This document shows positions 1,320 to 39,208 of a stretch of 64,000 bases of DNA, in pieces. Origin of the DNA: Flavitalea plasmicola (lineage in GTDB: Bacteria; Bacteroidota; Bacteroidia; Chitinophagales; Chitinophagaceae); the NCBI RefSeq assembly GCF_030546645.1, contig NZ_JAUOTO010000006.1, positions 620,001-684,000 of the forward strand. The letters run 5' to 3'. Under the pieces are notes generated by a model. That model did no database searches. It saw only the letters and a list, made by a program, of their open reading frames with translations, and was not told where the DNA came from. A program made the translations under genes and the position numbers. The first letter of the stretch is position 1. Every line of letters starts with the position of its first letter.

Positions 1320-1717
1320 ACGCCTGAGTCATCACATTATATTTTTTTATCTACACCCTCCCTTCTGTCAATTGTCGAGGCGGTTGTTTGCCTGTGACCA
1401 GCTTCGGTTTTTATGCATCGTAACCAGAACTGCGAACAACATGAGAAGACTTCTTCACTTGACAGGAGGGCTTTTTATCTGATTTTACCCGGCTGCTTCA
1501 TGACCCTCCGCGGTACTTCAAACTCTATAAGTATAAACCTGTAGAAGCCCTATAAAGACATTCCCATTCGCGGAAATCCACGACTGACTTCGTAATTTTT
1601 AGAAAGATAAGTCACATTATTACTACTGTCAATATTTTGAGTGCCCACTCCATTTGCTCCGTTGCATCCCGGGAAACTGCATAGAGTCATATTTATTTAT
1701 TAACCAAAACAGATCAC

Positions 1718-4700
1718 ATGAGAAAACTTCACGGTCTCATAGTGGGCCTCCTATTGCTCATTTCATCCGGGCTAATAGCGCAAACTAAAGAAGTCACAGG
1801 AAAGATCACAGATCCATCCGGAAATCCTATCCCGGGAGCTTCTATCCGCATTAAAGGCCTTAAGAAAGGTACCAGCGCCGACACCAACGGCGAATTCAAG
1901 ATCACTGCCCCCGAAAATGCCTCCTTTATCATCAGTGGCGTAGGCTTCCAGCCGGTAGAGATCTCCGTAAAAGACAGGACCTCCATCACCATCGCCTTGC
2001 AACCATCCAACAACGCACTGAGCGAAGTAGTCGTCACCGCTCTGGGTATCAAAAGAGAAAAGAAAGCCCTGGGCTATGCCGTATCCACCGTCGACAAAGC
2101 CGCATTGGAGCTTAGGCCCGAAGGCGACCTGGGACGTGTCCTCAGCGGCAAGGCCCCGGGCCTGAATGTCCTCAGCACCAGCGGCCTCAGCGGCAGCGGC
2201 ACCAATATCAACATCCGCGGTATCAGCACGATCAGCGGTAACTCGACACCTCTGTTCGTTGTCGACGGCGTTCCATTCGACAACAGTACCAATACCCAGG
2301 CCGACTTCACCTTCGGTACCCAGACCTCCAGCCGCTTCCTGGACCTGGATCCCAATAACGTCGAAAGCGTCAGCATCCTGAAAGGACTAAGCGCCACCGT
2401 CCTGTACGGCGAAGCCGGAAGAAATGGTGTCATCCTCGTCACCACCAGGAACGGCGCCTCGCAAAAGGCAAGAAAAAAAGCGGAGATCATGGTCTCCCAA
2501 TCTTATTTCCGTACAAAAGCAATATTACCGGAATACAATACTGAATATGGCGGTGGATTCGACCTTAGCCAGGGTATCGCCTTCTTTAGCAACTGGGGTG
2601 CCAGGTTCACCCATCCGCCCGCTGTGGTAACCCACCCCTATGACAAATCCAACCTGGCTAATGAATTCCCTCAATACCAGGGCGCACCTTATTACTATCA
2701 ATATTATAACAGCGTCCCCCGCTTTTTCAGAACGGGCAACACCAGCAATACATCGGTGAATGTCTCTGGCGCCTCACCCACCGCCAGCTATGCCATGAGC
2801 TATAGCTACATGGACGACGAAGGCTATTTGCCGGGGAACTCCATGTTCAAGAATACCTTCGGATTCGGCGGGTCCGCCAGGCTGACGAATAAGTTCACGG
2901 TCAGCGGAACGGTGAACTATGTTTCGACCAACGTAAGCTCGCCACCCACCAGCGACAGCTATGGCAATAATTCCACCAACACTTCCGTATTTGGCAACGT
3001 CTTGTATACCCCTACCGCCGTTGACCTGATGGGACTGCCCTATGAACTGCCTTCCGATCACTCTTCTATCTACTATCGTAATGGAAATGATATTCAAAAT
3101 CCTCGCTGGACCCTTTATAACGCCTTCACCGTTGATAAGGTCAGCCGCGTATTCGGTCAGATGACGTTCTCCTACGCCACACCGGTAAAAGGGATGAACC
3201 TGTCCTACCGGATAGGATATGACAACTATACGGAGTTCCAGGAATACGCCCAGAACAAGGGCGGCATTGCCACACCCACCGGTATCTACCGCACCACTAC
3301 CGGCATCAATACCATCTGGGATCATACAGGTCTGCTGAATTACAATCGGAACTTCGGAGATAATTTCTCCCTCAACGTGGACGCTGGCGCCAACGCCAAA
3401 GAGATCAAGTATGAACAGACAGGCATGACCAGTAGCCAGCAGCTGGTGTACGGCCTGATGAACCATGGCAACTTCGTCAATCATTCTTCCAACGGCGAAA
3501 ACGGTACCACACCATTGAACAACAACAATTCCAATGTATTAAGCCTGGGCCTTTTCGCACAAGGCACGTTAGGCTATAAGGATTATGCTTACCTGACCGT
3601 CGGAGGCCGCAACAGCTGGTTCTCCACCGTGGAAAAGAACCATCGCAGCATCTTCTATCCCAGCGGCTCCCTGGCTTTCATTCCAACCACGGCGATAGAA
3701 AGCCTCAAGGGCAGTAAAATGGTCAATTACCTTAAGCTGAGGATCGGTTACGCCACCTCCGCCAATATTCCGCCGGCCTATTCCACCAGGGCTACCCTGT
3801 ACACAGCTACGCAAAATTTCCTCACGGCCAAGGGCACGGCCATCAATATCAACTCCATACCACCATTGCTGCCCAACCCCGATTTGAAGCCGGAACTGCT
3901 GAAAGAGACGGAGGCCGGCGTGGAAGGCAGGTTCCTGAATAATATAGTGGACGTCGATCTCACCGTCTATCGCCGCGTTGCAAATGATCAGATCCTTTTG
4001 CGCCTGGTTGACCCTGCCGCTGGCGGCACCGAAAAGCAAATCAATGCAGGTGAAGTCACCAATAAAGGCATCGAGCTGAAAATTGGTGTGACGGTCCTGC
4101 AGACCCAGGACTGGAGATGGCAGCTGGATGGACTGTATACTTTGAACAAAAGCAAGGTATCCAATTTGCCGGCTGACCTGACCCAGGTTCCTACTGCCGG
4201 GTATTCCAACCTGGGAACCTTTGCAAAAAATGGTTATCCCCTCGGCATTATCATGGCCAACTATTTCCAGAAAGACCCGAAATCCGGCAAGCGCCTGGTC
4301 GGCACGGACGGTAACTACATCAACTCTGGTGACATCGGCATCATAGGCGACCCCAATGCTTTATATAAGCTCACGGGCATCAGTACCCTTTCTTATAAAG
4401 GGCTATCCTTCAGGATGCAATGGGACTTTACGGAGGGTGGTGAAATGTTCTCTTCCACGGCTGGCGCACTGCTGGGCAGAGGTGTGACAAAGGATACGCA
4501 ATTCGATAGGGCCGCACCCTATATACTGCCGGGTGTGCTGGAGAACGGTCAGCCCAATAACATCGAGATCTCCGCTACGCAAGCCTATTACGGCAACAGC
4601 ATCACCAATGGTGCTGCGAATGAAGGCGCCGTCTTCGATGCCACCTGCATCCGCCTCCGGGAAGCATCCCTTTCCTATAGCCCTCCCGCAAAAATTTTAG

Positions 4701-4894
4701 ATAAGACACCATTCGGCTCTCTTTCCGTCAGCCTGTCCGGTACCAATCTCTGGTACTATGCCCCCAACTTCCCCAAATACATCCACTTCGATCCGGAGGC
4801 TTCCGGTCTGGGTGTAGGCAATGGAAGGGGTATGGAATTCCTATCCGGCCCATCGGCCCGCAGATACGGCGTCAGTCTGAGAGTCACTTTCTAA
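1718..4894 (+). CDS. SusC/RagA-family TonB-linked outer-membrane transporter
   Basis: A 1058-aa protein of normal SusC length. Order of parts: signal peptide (residues 1-22, ending LIAQ), a carboxypeptidase-regulatory-like beta-sandwich (about 25-95, VTGKITDPSGNPIPGAS), a TonB-box/plug region starting near LSEVVVTALGIKREKKALGYA, the plug domain with NINIRGISTISG and PLFVVDGVPFD (about 165-190), and a long C-terminal barrel ending in YGVSLRVTF with a terminal aromatic residue. The family imports large nutrients across the outer membrane using TonB energy, with a SusD lid. The SusD gene follows after 18 bases and a third lipoprotein gene closes the operon. No CAZyme or peptidase gene is attached, so the substrate is unknown. 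No ECF sigma or anti-sigma gene is adjacent. Confidence 0.95.
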   Translation: MRKLHGLIVGLLLLISSGLIAQTKEVTGKITDPSGNPIPGASIRIKGLKKGTSADTNGEFKITAPENASFIISGVGFQPVEISVKDRTSITIALQPSNNALSEVVVTALGIKREKKALGYAVSTVDKAALELRPEGDLGRVLSGKAPGLNVLSTSGLSGSGTNINIRGISTISGNSTPLFVVDGVPFDNSTNTQADFTFGTQTSSRFLDLDPNNVESVSILKGLSATVLYGEAGRNGVILVTTRNGASQKARKKAEIMVSQSYFRTKAILPEYNTEYGGGFDLSQGIAFFSNWGARFTHPPAVVTHPYDKSNLANEFPQYQGAPYYYQYYNSVPRFFRTGNTSNTSVNVSGASPTASYAMSYSYMDDEGYLPGNSMFKNTFGFGGSARLTNKFTVSGTVNYVSTNVSSPPTSDSYGNNSTNTSVFGNVLYTPTAVDLMGLPYELPSDHSSIYYRNGNDIQNPRWTLYNAFTVDKVSRVFGQMTFSYATPVKGMNLSYRIGYDNYTEFQEYAQNKGGIATPTGIYRTTTGINTIWDHTGLLNYNRNFGDNFSLNVDAGANAKEIKYEQTGMTSSQQLVYGLMNHGNFVNHSSNGENGTTPLNNNNSNVLSLGLFAQGTLGYKDYAYLTVGGRNSWFSTVEKNHRSIFYPSGSLAFIPTTAIESLKGSKMVNYLKLRIGYATSANIPPAYSTRATLYTATQNFLTAKGTAININSIPPLLPNPDLKPELLKETEAGVEGRFLNNIVDVDLTVYRRVANDQILLRLVDPAAGGTEKQINAGEVTNKGIELKIGVTVLQTQDWRWQLDGLYTLNKSKVSNLPADLTQVPTAGYSNLGTFAKNGYPLGIIMANYFQKDPKSGKRLVGTDGNYINSGDIGIIGDPNALYKLTGISTLSYKGLSFRMQWDFTEGGEMFSSTAGALLGRGVTKDTQFDRAAPYILPGVLENGQPNNIEISATQAYYGNSITNGAANEGAVFDATCIRLREASLSYSPPAKILDKTPFGSLSVSLSGTNLWYYAPNFPKYIHFDPEASGLGVGNGRGMEFLSGPSARRYGVSLRVTF

Positions 4895-8166: not shown

Positions 8167-8237
8167 ACATTATGTCAACAACTTTTCTTTTAGAAATTTT
8201 TGTGTCGTCATTTTAAATTACCACATAACTACTAAAC

Positions 8238-11200
8238 ATGAGAAAATGTCTAATGCTATCAGCGATGCTGATATTGTATTCACTACTAAGTTTTGGACAA
8301 ACGAAGAACGTGTCCGGCACGGTGACCAACGCGAGTGGTCTGCCCATTCCGAATGCGACCATTAAGATCAGGGGGGCCAAAACAGGTACCAGCGCCGATC
8401 AGAATGGCTCTTTCGTGATTAAAGCCCCTGGCAATGCGACGATTGTGATCAGCGCCGTGGGCTACCTGCCAAAGGAATTGGGCCTGGAGGACCGCACCTC
8501 CATTTCCATTCAGCTGGATGAAGATCGCAAGTCGCTCAGCGAAGTGGTCGTCACTGCCCTGGGTATCGCCCGGGAAAAGAGGTCGCTCAGCTACTCTGCG
8601 CAGAGCGTTACCGCAGAGAATATTTCCAATGGCGGCCGCGGCAACCTGATGGACAACATCAACGGAAAGGTCGCGGGCGTCCAGATCACCAATGCGGGCG
8701 GCCAGGCCGGCTCGGGTACCACCGTCATCATCCGCGGGTACAATTCGATAACAGGGACCAATCAGCCCTTGTACGTGGTCGATGGTGTTCCTATCGACAA
8801 CAGTGCCGAGCAGGGCAGCGGCTACGCGGTCAACGTACCCACAGCCAACCGGGCCGTCGACATCAGCCCCGATGATATCGAGAACCTCACGGTCCTGAAA
8901 GGTGGTGCGGCAACAGCGCTTTACGGCATCAAGGCGGCCAACGGCGCCCTGATCATCACTACCAAGAAAGGGCGTCCCGGAAAGATGGTGGTGGAAGCCG
9001 CCTTTGATCATGGTATAGCAAAAGCCAACAAGTTCCCTGCGCTCTCACACGGATTCATGAGAGGCAGCGGCGGTGTATACAACACAGTCACCACCAATAA
9101 CTGGGGGCCTACTGCTTCATCCAATCCCGTTTTCGCCTCAGGGACGAAACTTGATTTGGTAGGCACAGGCATACCCGTCGATGTATCCGGTCAGAAGATC
9201 CCCTATTATCCCAATAACTGGAAGAATTTTTTCGTCACAGGTAAATCGAACAAATATAATTTGTCTCTTTCAGGCGGCGGCGACAAGTCCACCTACTACG
9301 TAGGTCTGTCAAGACTGGAGCAGGATGGCATCATTTTAAATAACAACTACAACAAGACAGGCGCCGTCTTTAACTACACCACGCAGGTCAGCTCTCGCTT
9401 GAACCTGACCGTAAAGGCCAATTATATCAACACGGGCGGCAAACGTTTCGATGCAGGCAGGTTGATGAACGCACTGGACTACTATGTAAATACCTGGGAT
9501 ATCACCACCTTCCCCTGGAAGACCCCAACGGGTGAAGAGACCTGGTGGCAGAAGACGATCTCCAGTCCCGAATGGAGCGTACACGAGACGGGAGAAAAGT
9601 ACAAGCTGAATCGCCTCATCGCCAACATCGGCGCCGATTATAAGATTGCCCGCGACTGGTCGTTCAACTACAGGTACGGTGTCGACAATTATTCCGAGAA
9701 CAGGCGGAATGTCGACCCCATCGGTACCCTGGCCTACTCCAGCACCGACTACCTGGGTGGCATGCACGAAGTAAGGGTTAGCAACCTGCAGGTCAACTCG
9801 GAGGCTATGTTGAACTATGACCACAAATTCAGCGATGATCTTCATCTGCACGCATTGGTGGGCAACAACATCTTCTATAACAAATACGATGTGCTGGACA
9901 TCACCGGCACTTCCTTCGTTCTGCCTGACCTGTTCGATATCACCAACACCAAAACCCAAACGCTTTATCATTATTCCTTCCAGAAGCAGACATTGGGTGC
10001 ATATGCCGATGTGCAGTTGAGCTATAAGGACATGCTATTCCTGGAGGGCACCTACCGGAAGGACTGGTCGTCCACCCTGCCTCGTGCCAACATGGGTTTC
10101 CAATACCCTTCCGTGAGCGCAGGCTTTCTGTTCAGCGACCTGGTGCATTTTGACTGGTTGTCTTACGGCAAGCTGCGTGGCTCTATCGCCGGAACAGCTA
10201 ATGATGCCGGACCTTATCAAACAACTACTCCTTATGTCCCCGTTACGCCCAACGTGATGGGTAATCCCCGGTATTCTTATTCTACCCAGGTGGGTAATCC
10301 CTTCCTGAGACCGGAACATACAACCCAGAAAGAAATCGGCGCCGACCTGGGATTCTTTAAGCAAAAAGTCTTTTTGGAAGCTTCCTACTATTTCAAGAGG
10401 TCCAAGGACCTGATCGTGACAGCCCCCACCTCCAATGCAACAGGTGTTACCACAGAGGTGATCAATCTCGGCGAGATTACCAACAAAGGGGTAGATGCAA
10501 CCATCACCTTTAAGGATATCGTAAGGGCGAAAGGATTCAGCTGGACGTCCGCCTTCAACTTTGGCCGGAATGTCGGCAAGGTCATCAAAGTGGGTGACAA
10601 TGGCAATGACAAGCTGACCCTCGCCGGCGGTTACAATGCCACCACCGAGATTGACGCACAGAAAGGACAAGCCTTCGGCGCCATCTACGGCTATGCGTGG
10701 AAACGTTACAACGTAGCGTCCACCGATCCTAATTATATCAAAGCCCCTATGCTCATCGGTGACGACGGTACGGTCTCGGGCTCCGGTGATAAGGTCCTAC
10801 TGGGCAACACCAGCCCTAAGTTCATACTGGCCTGGAACAATACGCTGAAGTACATGGGTTTTACGTTTGGCTGGACCATCGAATGGAGACATGGCGGTGA
10901 TGTCATCAATGATTATAACAACCTGCTGACCTATTCCGGTAAAGGTGCGCTTACACAAAACAGGTACTACTCCGATACATATGCAGGTGCTAACTCGACC
11001 ATGACATACACAGGCGTCGATGCACAAGGGAAGGCAAAGACCAGCAACCCAATCAAGCTGACAAAATCCTGGTATACAGGCCAGTTCAACCAGATCGACG
11101 AACATTGGGTGGAAGACGCCAGCTGGCTGCGTCTGCGCAATATCTACCTGAGCTATGCGATCCCTGAGAGTGTCCTGAGACCCCTACATATCAAAGGTGT

Positions 11201-11366
11201 CGAGTTCACCATCGCAGGCCGCAACGTCTGGCTGCATACGAAATACACGGGCATCGATCCGGAAGTCGCTTCTGTCGGCAATGGCCCCAATGGTGTAACA
11301 GGCATCGATTACAATGGCGTTCCCGCTACAAAGGCCTGGGATGCGAGCGTAAAGATTAATTTTTAA
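8238..11366 (+). CDS. SusC/RagA-family TonB-linked outer-membrane transporter
   Basis: 1042 aa. Signal peptide (MRKCLMLSAMLILYSLLSFGQ), carboxypeptidase-regulatory-like domain (about 23-95, VSGTVTNASGLPIPNATIKI), TonB-box/plug junction LSEVVVTALGIAREKRSLSYS, plug with TTVIIRGYNSITG and PLYVVDGVPIDNS, and a barrel ending in WDASVKINF. It is similar in design to the SusC at 1718 but clearly diverged in barrel and plug loops, so it probably takes a different ligand. The ATG sits in the ACATGAGAAA context shared with the other susC starts and lies only about 70 bases after the relic terminator. The SusD partner follows 42 bases downstream. Confidence 0.95.
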   Translation: MRKCLMLSAMLILYSLLSFGQTKNVSGTVTNASGLPIPNATIKIRGAKTGTSADQNGSFVIKAPGNATIVISAVGYLPKELGLEDRTSISIQLDEDRKSLSEVVVTALGIAREKRSLSYSAQSVTAENISNGGRGNLMDNINGKVAGVQITNAGGQAGSGTTVIIRGYNSITGTNQPLYVVDGVPIDNSAEQGSGYAVNVPTANRAVDISPDDIENLTVLKGGAATALYGIKAANGALIITTKKGRPGKMVVEAAFDHGIAKANKFPALSHGFMRGSGGVYNTVTTNNWGPTASSNPVFASGTKLDLVGTGIPVDVSGQKIPYYPNNWKNFFVTGKSNKYNLSLSGGGDKSTYYVGLSRLEQDGIILNNNYNKTGAVFNYTTQVSSRLNLTVKANYINTGGKRFDAGRLMNALDYYVNTWDITTFPWKTPTGEETWWQKTISSPEWSVHETGEKYKLNRLIANIGADYKIARDWSFNYRYGVDNYSENRRNVDPIGTLAYSSTDYLGGMHEVRVSNLQVNSEAMLNYDHKFSDDLHLHALVGNNIFYNKYDVLDITGTSFVLPDLFDITNTKTQTLYHYSFQKQTLGAYADVQLSYKDMLFLEGTYRKDWSSTLPRANMGFQYPSVSAGFLFSDLVHFDWLSYGKLRGSIAGTANDAGPYQTTTPYVPVTPNVMGNPRYSYSTQVGNPFLRPEHTTQKEIGADLGFFKQKVFLEASYYFKRSKDLIVTAPTSNATGVTTEVINLGEITNKGVDATITFKDIVRAKGFSWTSAFNFGRNVGKVIKVGDNGNDKLTLAGGYNATTEIDAQKGQAFGAIYGYAWKRYNVASTDPNYIKAPMLIGDDGTVSGSGDKVLLGNTSPKFILAWNNTLKYMGFTFGWTIEWRHGGDVINDYNNLLTYSGKGALTQNRYYSDTYAGANSTMTYTGVDAQGKAKTSNPIKLTKSWYTGQFNQIDEHWVEDASWLRLRNIYLSYAIPESVLRPLHIKGVEFTIAGRNVWLHTKYTGIDPEVASVGNGPNGVTGIDYNGVPATKAWDASVKINF

Positions 11367-37029: not shown

Positions 37030-38094
37030 ATGTTAGATAAATTAGAAGCCATAAAGGCGAGATTCGAAGACCTGGGAGTAGCCCTGAGCAATCCGGAGAT
37101 TGTCAGCGACAACCGGAAGTTCAGAGAGATAAGTAAAGAATACCGTCACCTGGAAAAGATCGTCCAGGCGTACAAGGAATATAAGGACCTGTTGGATACG
37201 ATCGATTTTAATAGAGAGGCGTTAAACGGGGACGATGCCGAATTACGTGATCTTGCCAAAGCCGAAACGGCAGGCCTGGACGAGAAAAAGGAGAAGATGG
37301 AGGCTTTCGTTCGCCAGCTGCTGATTCCCAAAGACCCTCAGGACGAAAAGAATGCCATCCTGGAGATCAGGGCTGGTACGGGAGGAGATGAAGCCAGCTT
37401 GTTCGCAGGCGACCTGCTTCGCATGTATATAAAGTATTGCGAACGGAGGGGCTGGAAAACTGCTATCCTCAGCGAAAGTGAAGGCACAGTGGGTGGATAC
37501 AAGGAAGTCCAGGTGGAAGTGGTGGGCGATGACGTATACGGGACGCTTAAATTCGAGAGTGGCGTTCATCGTGTGCAGCGTGTACCGGATACGGAGACGA
37601 GCGGGCGCGTACATACGAGTGCGGCTACTGTCGCCGTGATGCCCGAGGCGGAAGAGGTGGATTTCGAGCTGAAGGAAAGCGACGTAAAAATGGAGACGGC
37701 CCGTAGCGGTGGCGCCGGCGGTCAGAATGTAAACAAGGTGGAAACAAAGGTCTTTCTTACGCATATTCCCACAGGCGTGGTCGTGGTCTGCCAGACGGAA
37801 CGCAGCCAGCTGGGCAACAGGGAAAAGGCAATGCAGATGCTGCGCACCAAATTATATGAGGAACAGGTACGCAAACAGGAAGAGGAAATTGCCCGTCACC
37901 GGAAAAGCCTCGTCAGCACAGGAGATCGCAGCGCCAAGATCCGAACCTACAATTTTCCACAGGGTAGGGTGACAGACCACCGCATCGGCCTCACCGTCTA
38001 TAACCTGGACGATGTACTGAATGGGAATATCCAGGAATTTATCGACGCTCTCCAATTTGCGGAGAATGCCGAGAAAATGGCCCGGCAGAATTAA
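37030..38094 (+). CDS. prfA: Peptide chain release factor 1
   Basis: 354 aa. Contains the RF1 codon-recognition PxT motif (PDT in [15 protein letters not shown], recognising UAA/UAG) and the universal GGQ motif ([14 protein letters not shown]) whose Gln is methylated and drives peptidyl-tRNA hydrolysis. The N-terminal coiled coil and domain order are standard. No hemK/prmC gene follows, unlike in many bacteria. Downstream is an unusually long convergent gap. Confidence 0.97.
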
Positions 38095-38415
38095 CTCTAT
38101 ACGAACCCGCCAAATTAAAACGGCATTAAAAGCGCCCCGCCAAGCCCTCACGGTTCTGGGTAGTTATTGGCTGTTTTCCCGTTTTTAGAATCTTTTAACG
38201 CTTGTGCTGTAAACCTTTTCTTCGTTTCTGCGTCTTTATATTGTAGAAGTTCTTTAAAAAAACAGCTAAAATCTTGCTATAAACCACGGGATTACGTATC
38301 TTAAGAGAGCGAATGCTAAATAAATGTTATTACTCTTTGGATCAATTACGAAGCATCAATTTGCAACGTAATTTTACAGGGCAGGTGAAAATGAAGAGAA
38401 ATGGATAAGTAATAT

Positions 38416-38430
38416 TGGCACCTGTTTTGC
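38416..38430 (+). promoter_or_regulatory. Sigma-54 (RpoN) type -24/-12 promoter
   Basis: TGGCAC, five bases, TTGC: GG and GC lie at the exact spacing of the RpoN consensus, and no mismatch falls in the invariant positions. Predicted start is about 38441-38443. No gene lies between it and the terminator at 38515. Confidence 0.6.
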
Positions 38431-38441
38431 GTTATATAGTT

Positions 38442-38542
38442 CATAAGTTAGTCTTTTCTATTTGACTCACATAAAGCAGTCAATTTTCTCATAAGCAGTT
38501 AGTTTTGGTTACGACCCCTGTTTCTACAGGGGTTTATTTTTT
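38442..38542 (+). ncRNA. Putative ~100-nt small RNA under a sigma-54 promoter
   Basis: Runs from the predicted RpoN start to a classical terminator. Internal stem TTGACT/AGTCAA (about 38462-38483), single-stranded U-rich segments between, and terminator stem CCCCTGT/ACAGGGG. No ORF of useful length. It lies alone between convergent genes, where no mRNA needs a promoter. Not matched to any family I know. Confidence 0.5.
38515..38542 (+). terminator. Intrinsic terminator of the putative small RNA
   Basis: CCCCTGT (38515-38521), TTCT loop, ACAGGGG (38526-38532), then TTTATTTTTT. Confidence 0.85.
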
Positions 38543-38567
38543 CGGCCGAAGGCCAAAAAAATAAACC
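38531..38567. terminator. Bidirectional palindrome, likely vanZ terminator
   Basis: GGTTTATTTTTT / AAAAAATAAACC arms around GGCC-GAA-GGCC. On the minus strand it gives a GC stem plus T-run placed to end the vanZ-side transcript. Confidence 0.6.
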
Positions 38568-38592
38568 AGCGATCGCAGGCGATCGCAATAAA

Positions 38593-38661
38593 TTAGAGTC
38601 TAAACAAACCCTGGAGGACCGTTAGGTCCGATAAGAAACTCGGGCCGTCAGGCCAGACTAA
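38593..38661. other. Foldable block: two GNNA-loop hairpins within an outer stem
   Basis: GGACC-GTTA-GGTCC (38616-38629) and GGCC-GTCA-GGCC (38643-38654), enclosed by AGTCT (38597-38601) and AGACT (38655-38659): a three-way-junction-like fold. It is directly downstream of the vanZ stop in minus-strand terms. Confidence 0.5.
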
Positions 38662-38674
38662 ATAAACTGTCAAA

Positions 38675-39076
38675 CTAACCTTTGTAACCAGCCAAAAAAA
38701 CATTCGACACCCCATACCCCAACCCCGCTCCAATCATATCGGCAATAATATCTTCCGTATCAAAGTCCCTGAATGGGATGAAGTATTTCTGCACGAACTC
38801 CATTCCAATACCGAATGAATTTCCCAATATGAAAATGACGAAGAACCATCGCAGCAATTGAGGAGAAGACAAAGGCCTTCTGCTGAGATAAAAATTCCAG
38901 CTTAGCACAAACCCCCCGAACAAAGAGATATGCACTATTTTGTCGAATTGCGGAATAGTGAAATGTGACTCACTGGGCAGCATAGTCCCGGGGATGGATA
39001 GCAGAACAGCGATGATCAGTGTCCAGAGAATGGGAAGATAGACAGACCCCAGGTATTTTTTCAGAAATTGATTCAT
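38675..39076 (-). CDS. VanZ-family membrane protein
   Basis: 133 aa from ATG 39076 (MNQFLKKYLG); an in-frame start 12 codons earlier is less likely. About four transmembrane helices (LPILWTLIIAVLLSIPG, HISLFGGFVLSWNFYL, LLRWFFVIFILGNSFGIGMEFVQKY, DMIGAGLGYGVSNVFL) with the VanZ-type FDKIVHISLFGG and the acidic RDFDTEDIIADMIGAGLG near the C-terminus. VanZ-like proteins are linked to teicoplanin resistance in enterococci, but most homologues have unknown roles. In Bacteroidota this gene is often beside gcvH; here a sigma/anti-sigma pair lies between. Confidence 0.85.
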   Translation of the reverse strand: MNQFLKKYLGSVYLPILWTLIIAVLLSIPGTMLPSESHFTIPQFDKIVHISLFGGFVLSWNFYLSRRPLSSPQLLRWFFVIFILGNSFGIGMEFVQKYFIPFRDFDTEDIIADMIGAGLGYGVSNVFLAGYKG

Positions 39077-39208
39077 GTAGCGATGTCCGCTAAAGTAGAA
39101 AGAGACCGCCAAACAGAAAAATTTTGGACGATCTCTTTATTATAATATAACTTAAGTGGGACTTTTTTTTCTACCCAGTGTAGATTTTTTTTCCCGCAGC
39201 CCCCGTCT

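Follow-up and report, generated by a model that had tools for sequence, protein, structure and literature searches.

The gap between two convergent genes in the window raised the question of whether it encodes a regulated small RNA and, if so, what such an RNA would act on. The window is the whole stretch of DNA analysed (64,000 nucleotides of Flavitalea plasmicola). The gap spans 580 bases between the stop of prfA (peptide chain release factor, 37030..38094, plus strand; PF03462 and PF00472) and the 3' end of a vanZ-like gene (38675..39112, minus strand; PF04892). The length of the gap agrees with an earlier note on this DNA, which had proposed a sigma-54-dependent, regulated small RNA at this site.

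The perfect -24/-12 pattern claimed at 38416..38430 (plus strand) is present. This sigma-54-type promoter motif, TGGCAC-N5-TTGC (TGGCACCTGTTTTGC), has GG-N10-GC spacing and would place the transcription start at about 38442. All further elements lie on the same strand. The predicted 5' leader (38442..38483) contains two weaker core-like repeats and is poorly conserved. It is followed by a conserved core of 27 nt (TTTTCTCATAAGCAGTTAGTTTTGGTT, 38484..38510), the predicted pairing region for susC start sites, and by an intrinsic terminator (38513..38542) with a 9-bp stem (38513-38534), a 4-base loop and a T run. The earlier note had placed the terminator at 38515-38542; the terminator is real and its T run extends to 38542, but the stem begins at 38513. 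No ORF of at least 40 aa was found within 38442-38542, matching the claim that this part has no coding frame, and the only start-like codons there were two TTGs. The fold of 38442-38542 was stabler than its shuffles (z -3.5).

An internal stem formed by TTGACT and AGTCAA had also been described. Both words are present in the window copy (38462-38467 and 38478-38483), but the stem is not kept in relatives. In 27 distinct sequences, 48% of its cells were paired and none of its pairs covaried, and it was rejected as a conserved element. Past the terminator, the window carries a run of short palindromes at 38543-38665 (GGCCGAAGGCC, two copies of GCGATCGC, GGACCGTTAGGTCC and GGCCGTCAGGCC). A second copy of this stretch was not found in 1.6 Mb of the host genome.

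When 38340-38600 was used as a BLAST query, 143 of the 195 genomes in the host's family were matched. In other genera, identity reached 99% over 70-77 bases of the 3' part of the RNA, and the longer matches mostly started 6 bases ahead of the promoter motif. The exact 19-base core pattern was found in 133 of the 195 family genomes, often in more than one copy, vs none for the reversed pattern. A scan of named genomes for the core gave at least 118 stretches. Among the 80 matches listed, the titles were Chitinophagaceae or wider Bacteroidota, with the exception of two 'Williamsia' MAG contigs and one 'uncultured bacterium'; the genera among them were Niastella, Niabella, Ferruginibacter, Sediminibacterium, Flavihumibacter, Terrimonas, Puia and others. 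The core is also present in the genome of Niastella yeongjuensis DSM 17621. In the host genome, the module occurs three times, and 192 distinct copies were gathered by the core pattern. Going beyond the earlier note, the predicted RNA gene of the window belongs to a multi-copy set that spans the family.

The covariance model matched 18 of 149 genomes of the order, 16 within the family and two weak ones outside (L051 and L052, at 30.5 and 31.3 bits). In L051, the terminator alone was visible by eye. L052 (G249:C1:105500-105566), from a different family of the order, shows a similar terminator and a GGTTTTTGG-like tail, and it has TGGCATAGTTATTGA 61 nt upstream of a core-like stretch; it is possibly a distant relative. 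Among 295 genomes of the class, five were matched, all within the family, and no homologue was found outside it. Filtering is stricter in such large-scale model searches, and weak relatives may have escaped them. Neither the window nor ten related loci matched an Rfam family; PrrF (RF00444) was rejected, since the window scored 24.7 bits vs a gathering cut-off of 90.

All nine pairs of the terminator showed changes on both sides, vs 5.4 in shuffles, in 90 distinct sequences taken from 102 sigma-54-class copies. In this set, 99.4% of the stem cells were paired, and sliding the terminator helix abolished the covariation signal. Of the two stems for which covariation had been suggested as a check, it is this one that covaries. 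The 27-nt core was near-invariant in the three copy alignments A1, A2 and A3; as the copies of A2 and A3 were selected by 19 core bases, this invariance is partly due to selection, and the model matches include more diverged copies. Across the copies, the predicted RNA consists of a leader that varies, a 27-nt core that is nearly invariant and a terminator that covaries.

The promoter motif was analysed across the copies. [T/C]GGCA-N6-TTGC was present upstream of the core in 29 of 29 readable loci among the 30 top-scoring ones (window included; one masked). In the full set, the strict GG-N10-GC motif (at least 8/10) was found 20-220 nt upstream of the core in 76 of the 192 distinct copies, of which 71 had it at 48-76 nt before the core and five farther away within -220..-20. 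A relaxed motif, often ending in TTTGT or TTTGA, was found in another 31 copies (23 at 8/9 and 8 at 7/9). The relaxed motifs at 7/9 may be due to chance, because none of the 26 viral copies (see below) reached 8 and five reached 7. The remaining copies of the 192 were 54 with an unclassified promoter (18 of them adjoining vanZ), 7 of the TAnnTTTG type and 29 located shortly after a stop codon.

A further element, TTAAC, was found 20-22 bases upstream of TGG in 87 of 101 aligned copies (of the 102 sigma-54-class copies). Any TTAAC in -45..-10 was seen in 89 copies, vs 26 in a control stretch of equal length. The element is a possible activator site and is absent from the window copy. The promoters of the other two host copies are of the TAnnTTTG type.

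Taken alone, the promoter motif proves nothing: TGGCAN5TTTGC had 12 matches in the 8.7-Mb host genome (3 outside ORFs), and the reversed control also had 12. It was therefore rejected as stand-alone evidence. The motif, core and terminator together, however, are conserved far beyond chance, as judged by sequence comparison. Promoter and terminator are both conserved in relatives, which the earlier note had named as a check. Another check concerned the sigma factor and its activators. The host has two rpoN proteins (contig positions C16:221150 and C12:683658) and 26 matches to the sigma-54 activator domain PF00158, of which 21 are strong. As rpoN was present in 193 of the 195 family genomes, its co-occurrence with the module is uninformative. 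A second rpoN was seen by eye in a minority of the family genomes. These results support the earlier reading of a sigma-54-dependent, regulated small RNA.

The upstream genes vary from copy to copy. At 21 of the 192 copies, one protein cluster lies 8-37 nt upstream on the same strand, and its representative is HSP20 (PF00011). The 160 bases upstream of such hsp20 genes were searched with [T/C]GG[C/T][A/T]-N6-TTG[C/T/A]. Of 20 hsp20 genes examined that have the module after their stop, 19 carry a motif of the sigma-54 type, usually TGGTAC-like with TTTGA, at 41-81 nt upstream of the ATG. Core position 18 is A in the stand-alone copies (A2) and G in 19 of the 21 hsp20 copies. In L095, L100, L118, L130 and L161, GGAAATTnTGTC-like repeats are located upstream of the hsp20 sigma-54-type motif; they are a possible activator site, unlike the TTAAC element of the stand-alone copies. 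In a flavobacterium transcriptome, GroES/GroEL, Lon, DnaK, GrpE, HtpG, ClpB and the putative RNA Rfp36 are placed behind sigma-54-type promoters (PMC9723704). The chaperones in this list make a link to protein-folding stress plausible.

The core was also found in 26 IMG/VR viral contigs (L449-L474), with a terminator-like hairpin. In 13 of them it lies 6-21 nt past the stop of the upstream ORF, and no sigma-54 motif scored above 7/9. A PHROGs scan of ten neighbouring viral proteins matched five. A phage portal gene is directly upstream of the core in L454 (3062-3081) and L460 (8070-8089), and a head protease protein gene is downstream of the module in L450. In L468, the module lies between a family of unknown function on its upstream side and a methyltransferase on its downstream side.

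The target of the predicted RNA was approached through its core. Among words complementary to the core, searched for across the genus, CTTATGAGAAAA was found 44 times (vs 32 in the control) and AAACYAACTGCTT 15 times (vs 12), counted after removal of 36 module copies each. With little or no excess over the control, these words were rejected as a target search. About 18 of the 44 matches lay on start codons of secreted proteins, of which five were SusC-like by their N-terminal sequence.

We then computed duplexes between the 37-nt core and positions -25..+18 of each start in 1.6 Mb of the host genome (contigs C12 and C13). This test is independent of the start-codon matches, because the SusC idea arose from C17 and other genomes. 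The SusC set was built in steps: a first regex gave 2 ORFs (no energies computed), a plug-motif regex gave 14, and an HMM from those 14 gave 32 host ORFs of at least 200 bits, 30 from C12/C13 and two from the window. The HMM step postdates knowledge of the 14-ORF result. The 14 SusC-like ORFs had a mean of -19.4 vs -12.2 (sd 0.9) in 60 shuffled cores, none of which was as low. In the same test, 430 other signal-peptide genes had -11.2 vs -10.5 (5 of 60 shuffles as low), and the remaining 730 genes -10.8 vs -10.9. For the 32 SusC genes, the mean was -18.0 kcal/mol vs -11.6 (sd 0.78), and none of 200 shuffled cores was as low; the reversed core gave -9.1 on the same starts. A small shift was also seen in 120 genes sampled from 426 other signal-peptide genes (-11.7 vs -10.7, 6 of 200 shuffles).

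SusC genes made up 15 of the 40 best-pairing genes among 1219, with 1.05 expected; several of the best-pairing genes are not SusC. All 11 SusC genes checked were TIGR04056 SusC/RagA. The pairing is centred on the start codon. For 32 SusC ORFs of at least 900 aa, windows with a start at -30 to -20 paired most strongly (-17.8 to -18.6), vs -9.5 to -11.4 in those starting at least 60 bases before or at least 40 after the ATG. The start codon itself was paired in 28 of the 32 SusC genes, and eight of the 32 host starts paired no better than -13.2. The signal was carried by CTCATAAGCAGTTAGTTTTGG (z -5.8), not by the leader repeats or the terminator. The leader repeats were rejected as extra seeds: repeat 1 had z -2.0 for SusC vs -2.9 for other signal-peptide genes, and repeat 2 had z -1.0. 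The 6-mers CCAAAA (10 of 32 vs 10 of 426), AAACTA and ATGAGA were enriched in SusC starts and are all found in the core's reverse complement, unlike the two 6-mers with the strongest enrichment.

Two predicted target sites are in the window, both on the plus strand and both at TIGR04056 genes. The start region 1693..1735 of the susC-type ORF 1718-4894 forms a predicted duplex of -17.7 kcal/mol with the core, and the start region 8213..8255 of the ORF 8238-11366 one of -18.3 kcal/mol. The target test covered one genome (1.66 Mb of 8.7 Mb). From other module-bearing genera, the single SusC start found paired weakly (-10.0). The three SusC starts of the non-carrier genome G106 gave -18.6, -10.7 and -8.2. 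Beyond the earlier note, a target class can be named, with susC-type mRNAs as the predicted one.

The most likely explanation, and in our view a probable one, is a family of sigma-54-controlled, base-pairing sRNAs that would repress susC-type mRNAs by covering their start codons. A stress signal would fire an enhancer-binding protein, which together with sigma-54 would drive transcription from about 38442, as the conserved motifs suggest, and the sRNA would be made. Its core would then cover the susC start codon and repress translation; the pairing is computed, and the repression is proposed by analogy with FopS. As the core is complementary to most of the susC starts tested in the host, the RNA would likely switch the transporters off under sigma-54-activating stress. 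The hsp20 3' ends may supply the same RNA as a second source under protein-folding stress. Hfq (PF17209, Pfam) had no match in the host, while five of 14 control genomes, Escherichia coli among them, were positive. Hence another protein, or none, would be needed.

The position of the module in the hsp20 and viral copies also fits a different function. Core and terminator could form a protein-binding module, or one for 3'-end stability or termination, on stress and phage transcripts (e.g. a chaperone-binding site or a decoy), with the susC match being secondary. The fusion of the core to a terminator-like hairpin shortly after stop codons and its near-invariance over 27 nt would fit such a module. 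It leaves unexplained, however, why the core is complementary to susC starts with a peak at the start codon, why the 120 other signal-peptide genes show just a small shift, and why leader and terminator have no SusC-specific one. We regard this explanation as unlikely. Less likely again is a sigma-54-controlled sRNA with targets other than susC, or an antisense RNA to the convergent vanZ mRNA. A convergent VanZ homologue does adjoin 85 of the 192 copies, but other copies are not near vanZ and occur at the 3' ends of hsp20 and phage genes, and the susC pairing signal speaks against both variants.

The origin of the transcript could differ as well: a sigma-A-type (TAnnTTTG) promoter or read-through from prfA might make the RNA, with the -24/-12 match being due to chance. 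The chance-level count of the motif in the genome would allow for this, as would the TAnnTTTG promoters of the other host copies and the overlap of TAAATTTG with the -12 element in some copies. Yet TGGCA/TTGC with GG-N10-GC is position-locked across genera, and the TA of TAnnTTTG is not; read-through from prfA is at odds with upstream genes that differ among the copies. Of the alternatives, this one appears the most improbable. Within the preferred reading of sigma-54-controlled anti-susC sRNAs, a wider scheme can be put forward tentatively, with a chance that we put somewhat below even. One module, in which an invariant seed against susC is joined to a terminator, would occur across the family in three formats: as stand-alone sigma-54 sRNAs, in sigma-54-driven hsp20 3' ends and in the 3' ends of phage structural-gene mRNAs. 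It would provide a global, stress-triggered SusC shut-off that phages have captured, perhaps for removing receptors or freeing the secretion machinery during infection.

SusC-type transporters are how such bacteria feed on polysaccharides, and the joint restraint of dozens of them is poorly known. The Qrr sRNAs of Vibrio are multi-copy, sigma-54-dependent and base-pairing with a long invariant core, as proposed here; unlike the present family, they are Hfq-dependent, serve quorum sensing, have other targets and belong to another phylum. In enterobacteria, RybB/MicA and CpxQ are envelope-stress sRNAs that shut off outer-membrane protein mRNAs, and CpxQ derives from the 3' end of a chaperone mRNA. 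These sRNAs are sigma-E- or Cpx-driven and Hfq-dependent, and their sequence is unrelated to the present family.

Within the phylum, a close parallel is FopS. FopS and GibS of Bacteroides thetaiotaomicron are described as multi-copy sRNAs with a single-stranded seed followed by an intrinsic terminator (PMC11697453). Experiments showed that FopS represses susC-type mRNAs, with which it pairs close to the start codon; of 14, one is 3'-UTR-derived, and a phage copy is reported (PMC11697453). The present family resembles FopS, as described there, in being multi-copy, in its seed followed by a terminator and in its susC start-codon pairing, here predicted in silico in one genome. In the same description, however, FopS genes have sigma-ABfr promoters and belong to Bacteroidaceae, whereas the present family has sigma-54-type motifs or hsp20 3' ends and belongs to another bacterial family. 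A sigma-ABfr promoter was not found at the window copy, while the other two host copies do have TAnnTTTG. No relatedness of FopS to the present RNA family was detected in the Rfam search, which covered the window and ten related loci. Rfp36 of Flavobacterium psychrophilum (PMC9723704), as entered in a table there, is likewise a putative RNA behind a sigma-54 promoter, among chaperones and in the same phylum; the RNA model had no match outside the host family among the 295 class genomes.

The kind of regulation is already known, from FopS-like susC repression and from stress-sigma sRNAs. Among the papers listed on Chitinophagaceae and Bacteroidetes sRNAs, sigma-54, and SusC with sRNA, there was no recognisable description of the RNA family. 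As far as these searches show, the family and its combination of features are new. If the proposal is true, the Bacteroidota would have their own equivalent of the enterobacterial envelope-stress sRNAs, acting at a defined pairing site and without Hfq. Chaperone induction would be linked to transporter shut-off via an RNA carried by the 3' end of the chaperone mRNA itself. A further implication would be that multi-copy sRNAs for silencing susC evolved on more than one occasion in the phylum, and that phages make use of such silencing.

Some copies showed further arrangements. L079, L141 and L150 each encode, 4-26 nt before the module, a small protein whose end region contains ..EDFVITxQEEREGGxFG. 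Tandem copies 96-201 bases apart were seen in G100 (C33:120064 and 120241), G173 (C2:408155 and 408356), G083 (C2:657855 and 658007), G160 (C1:573585 and 573735) and G049 (C218:2960 and 3056). Both copies of the tandem locus L188 (G100) have a sigma-54-type motif of their own.
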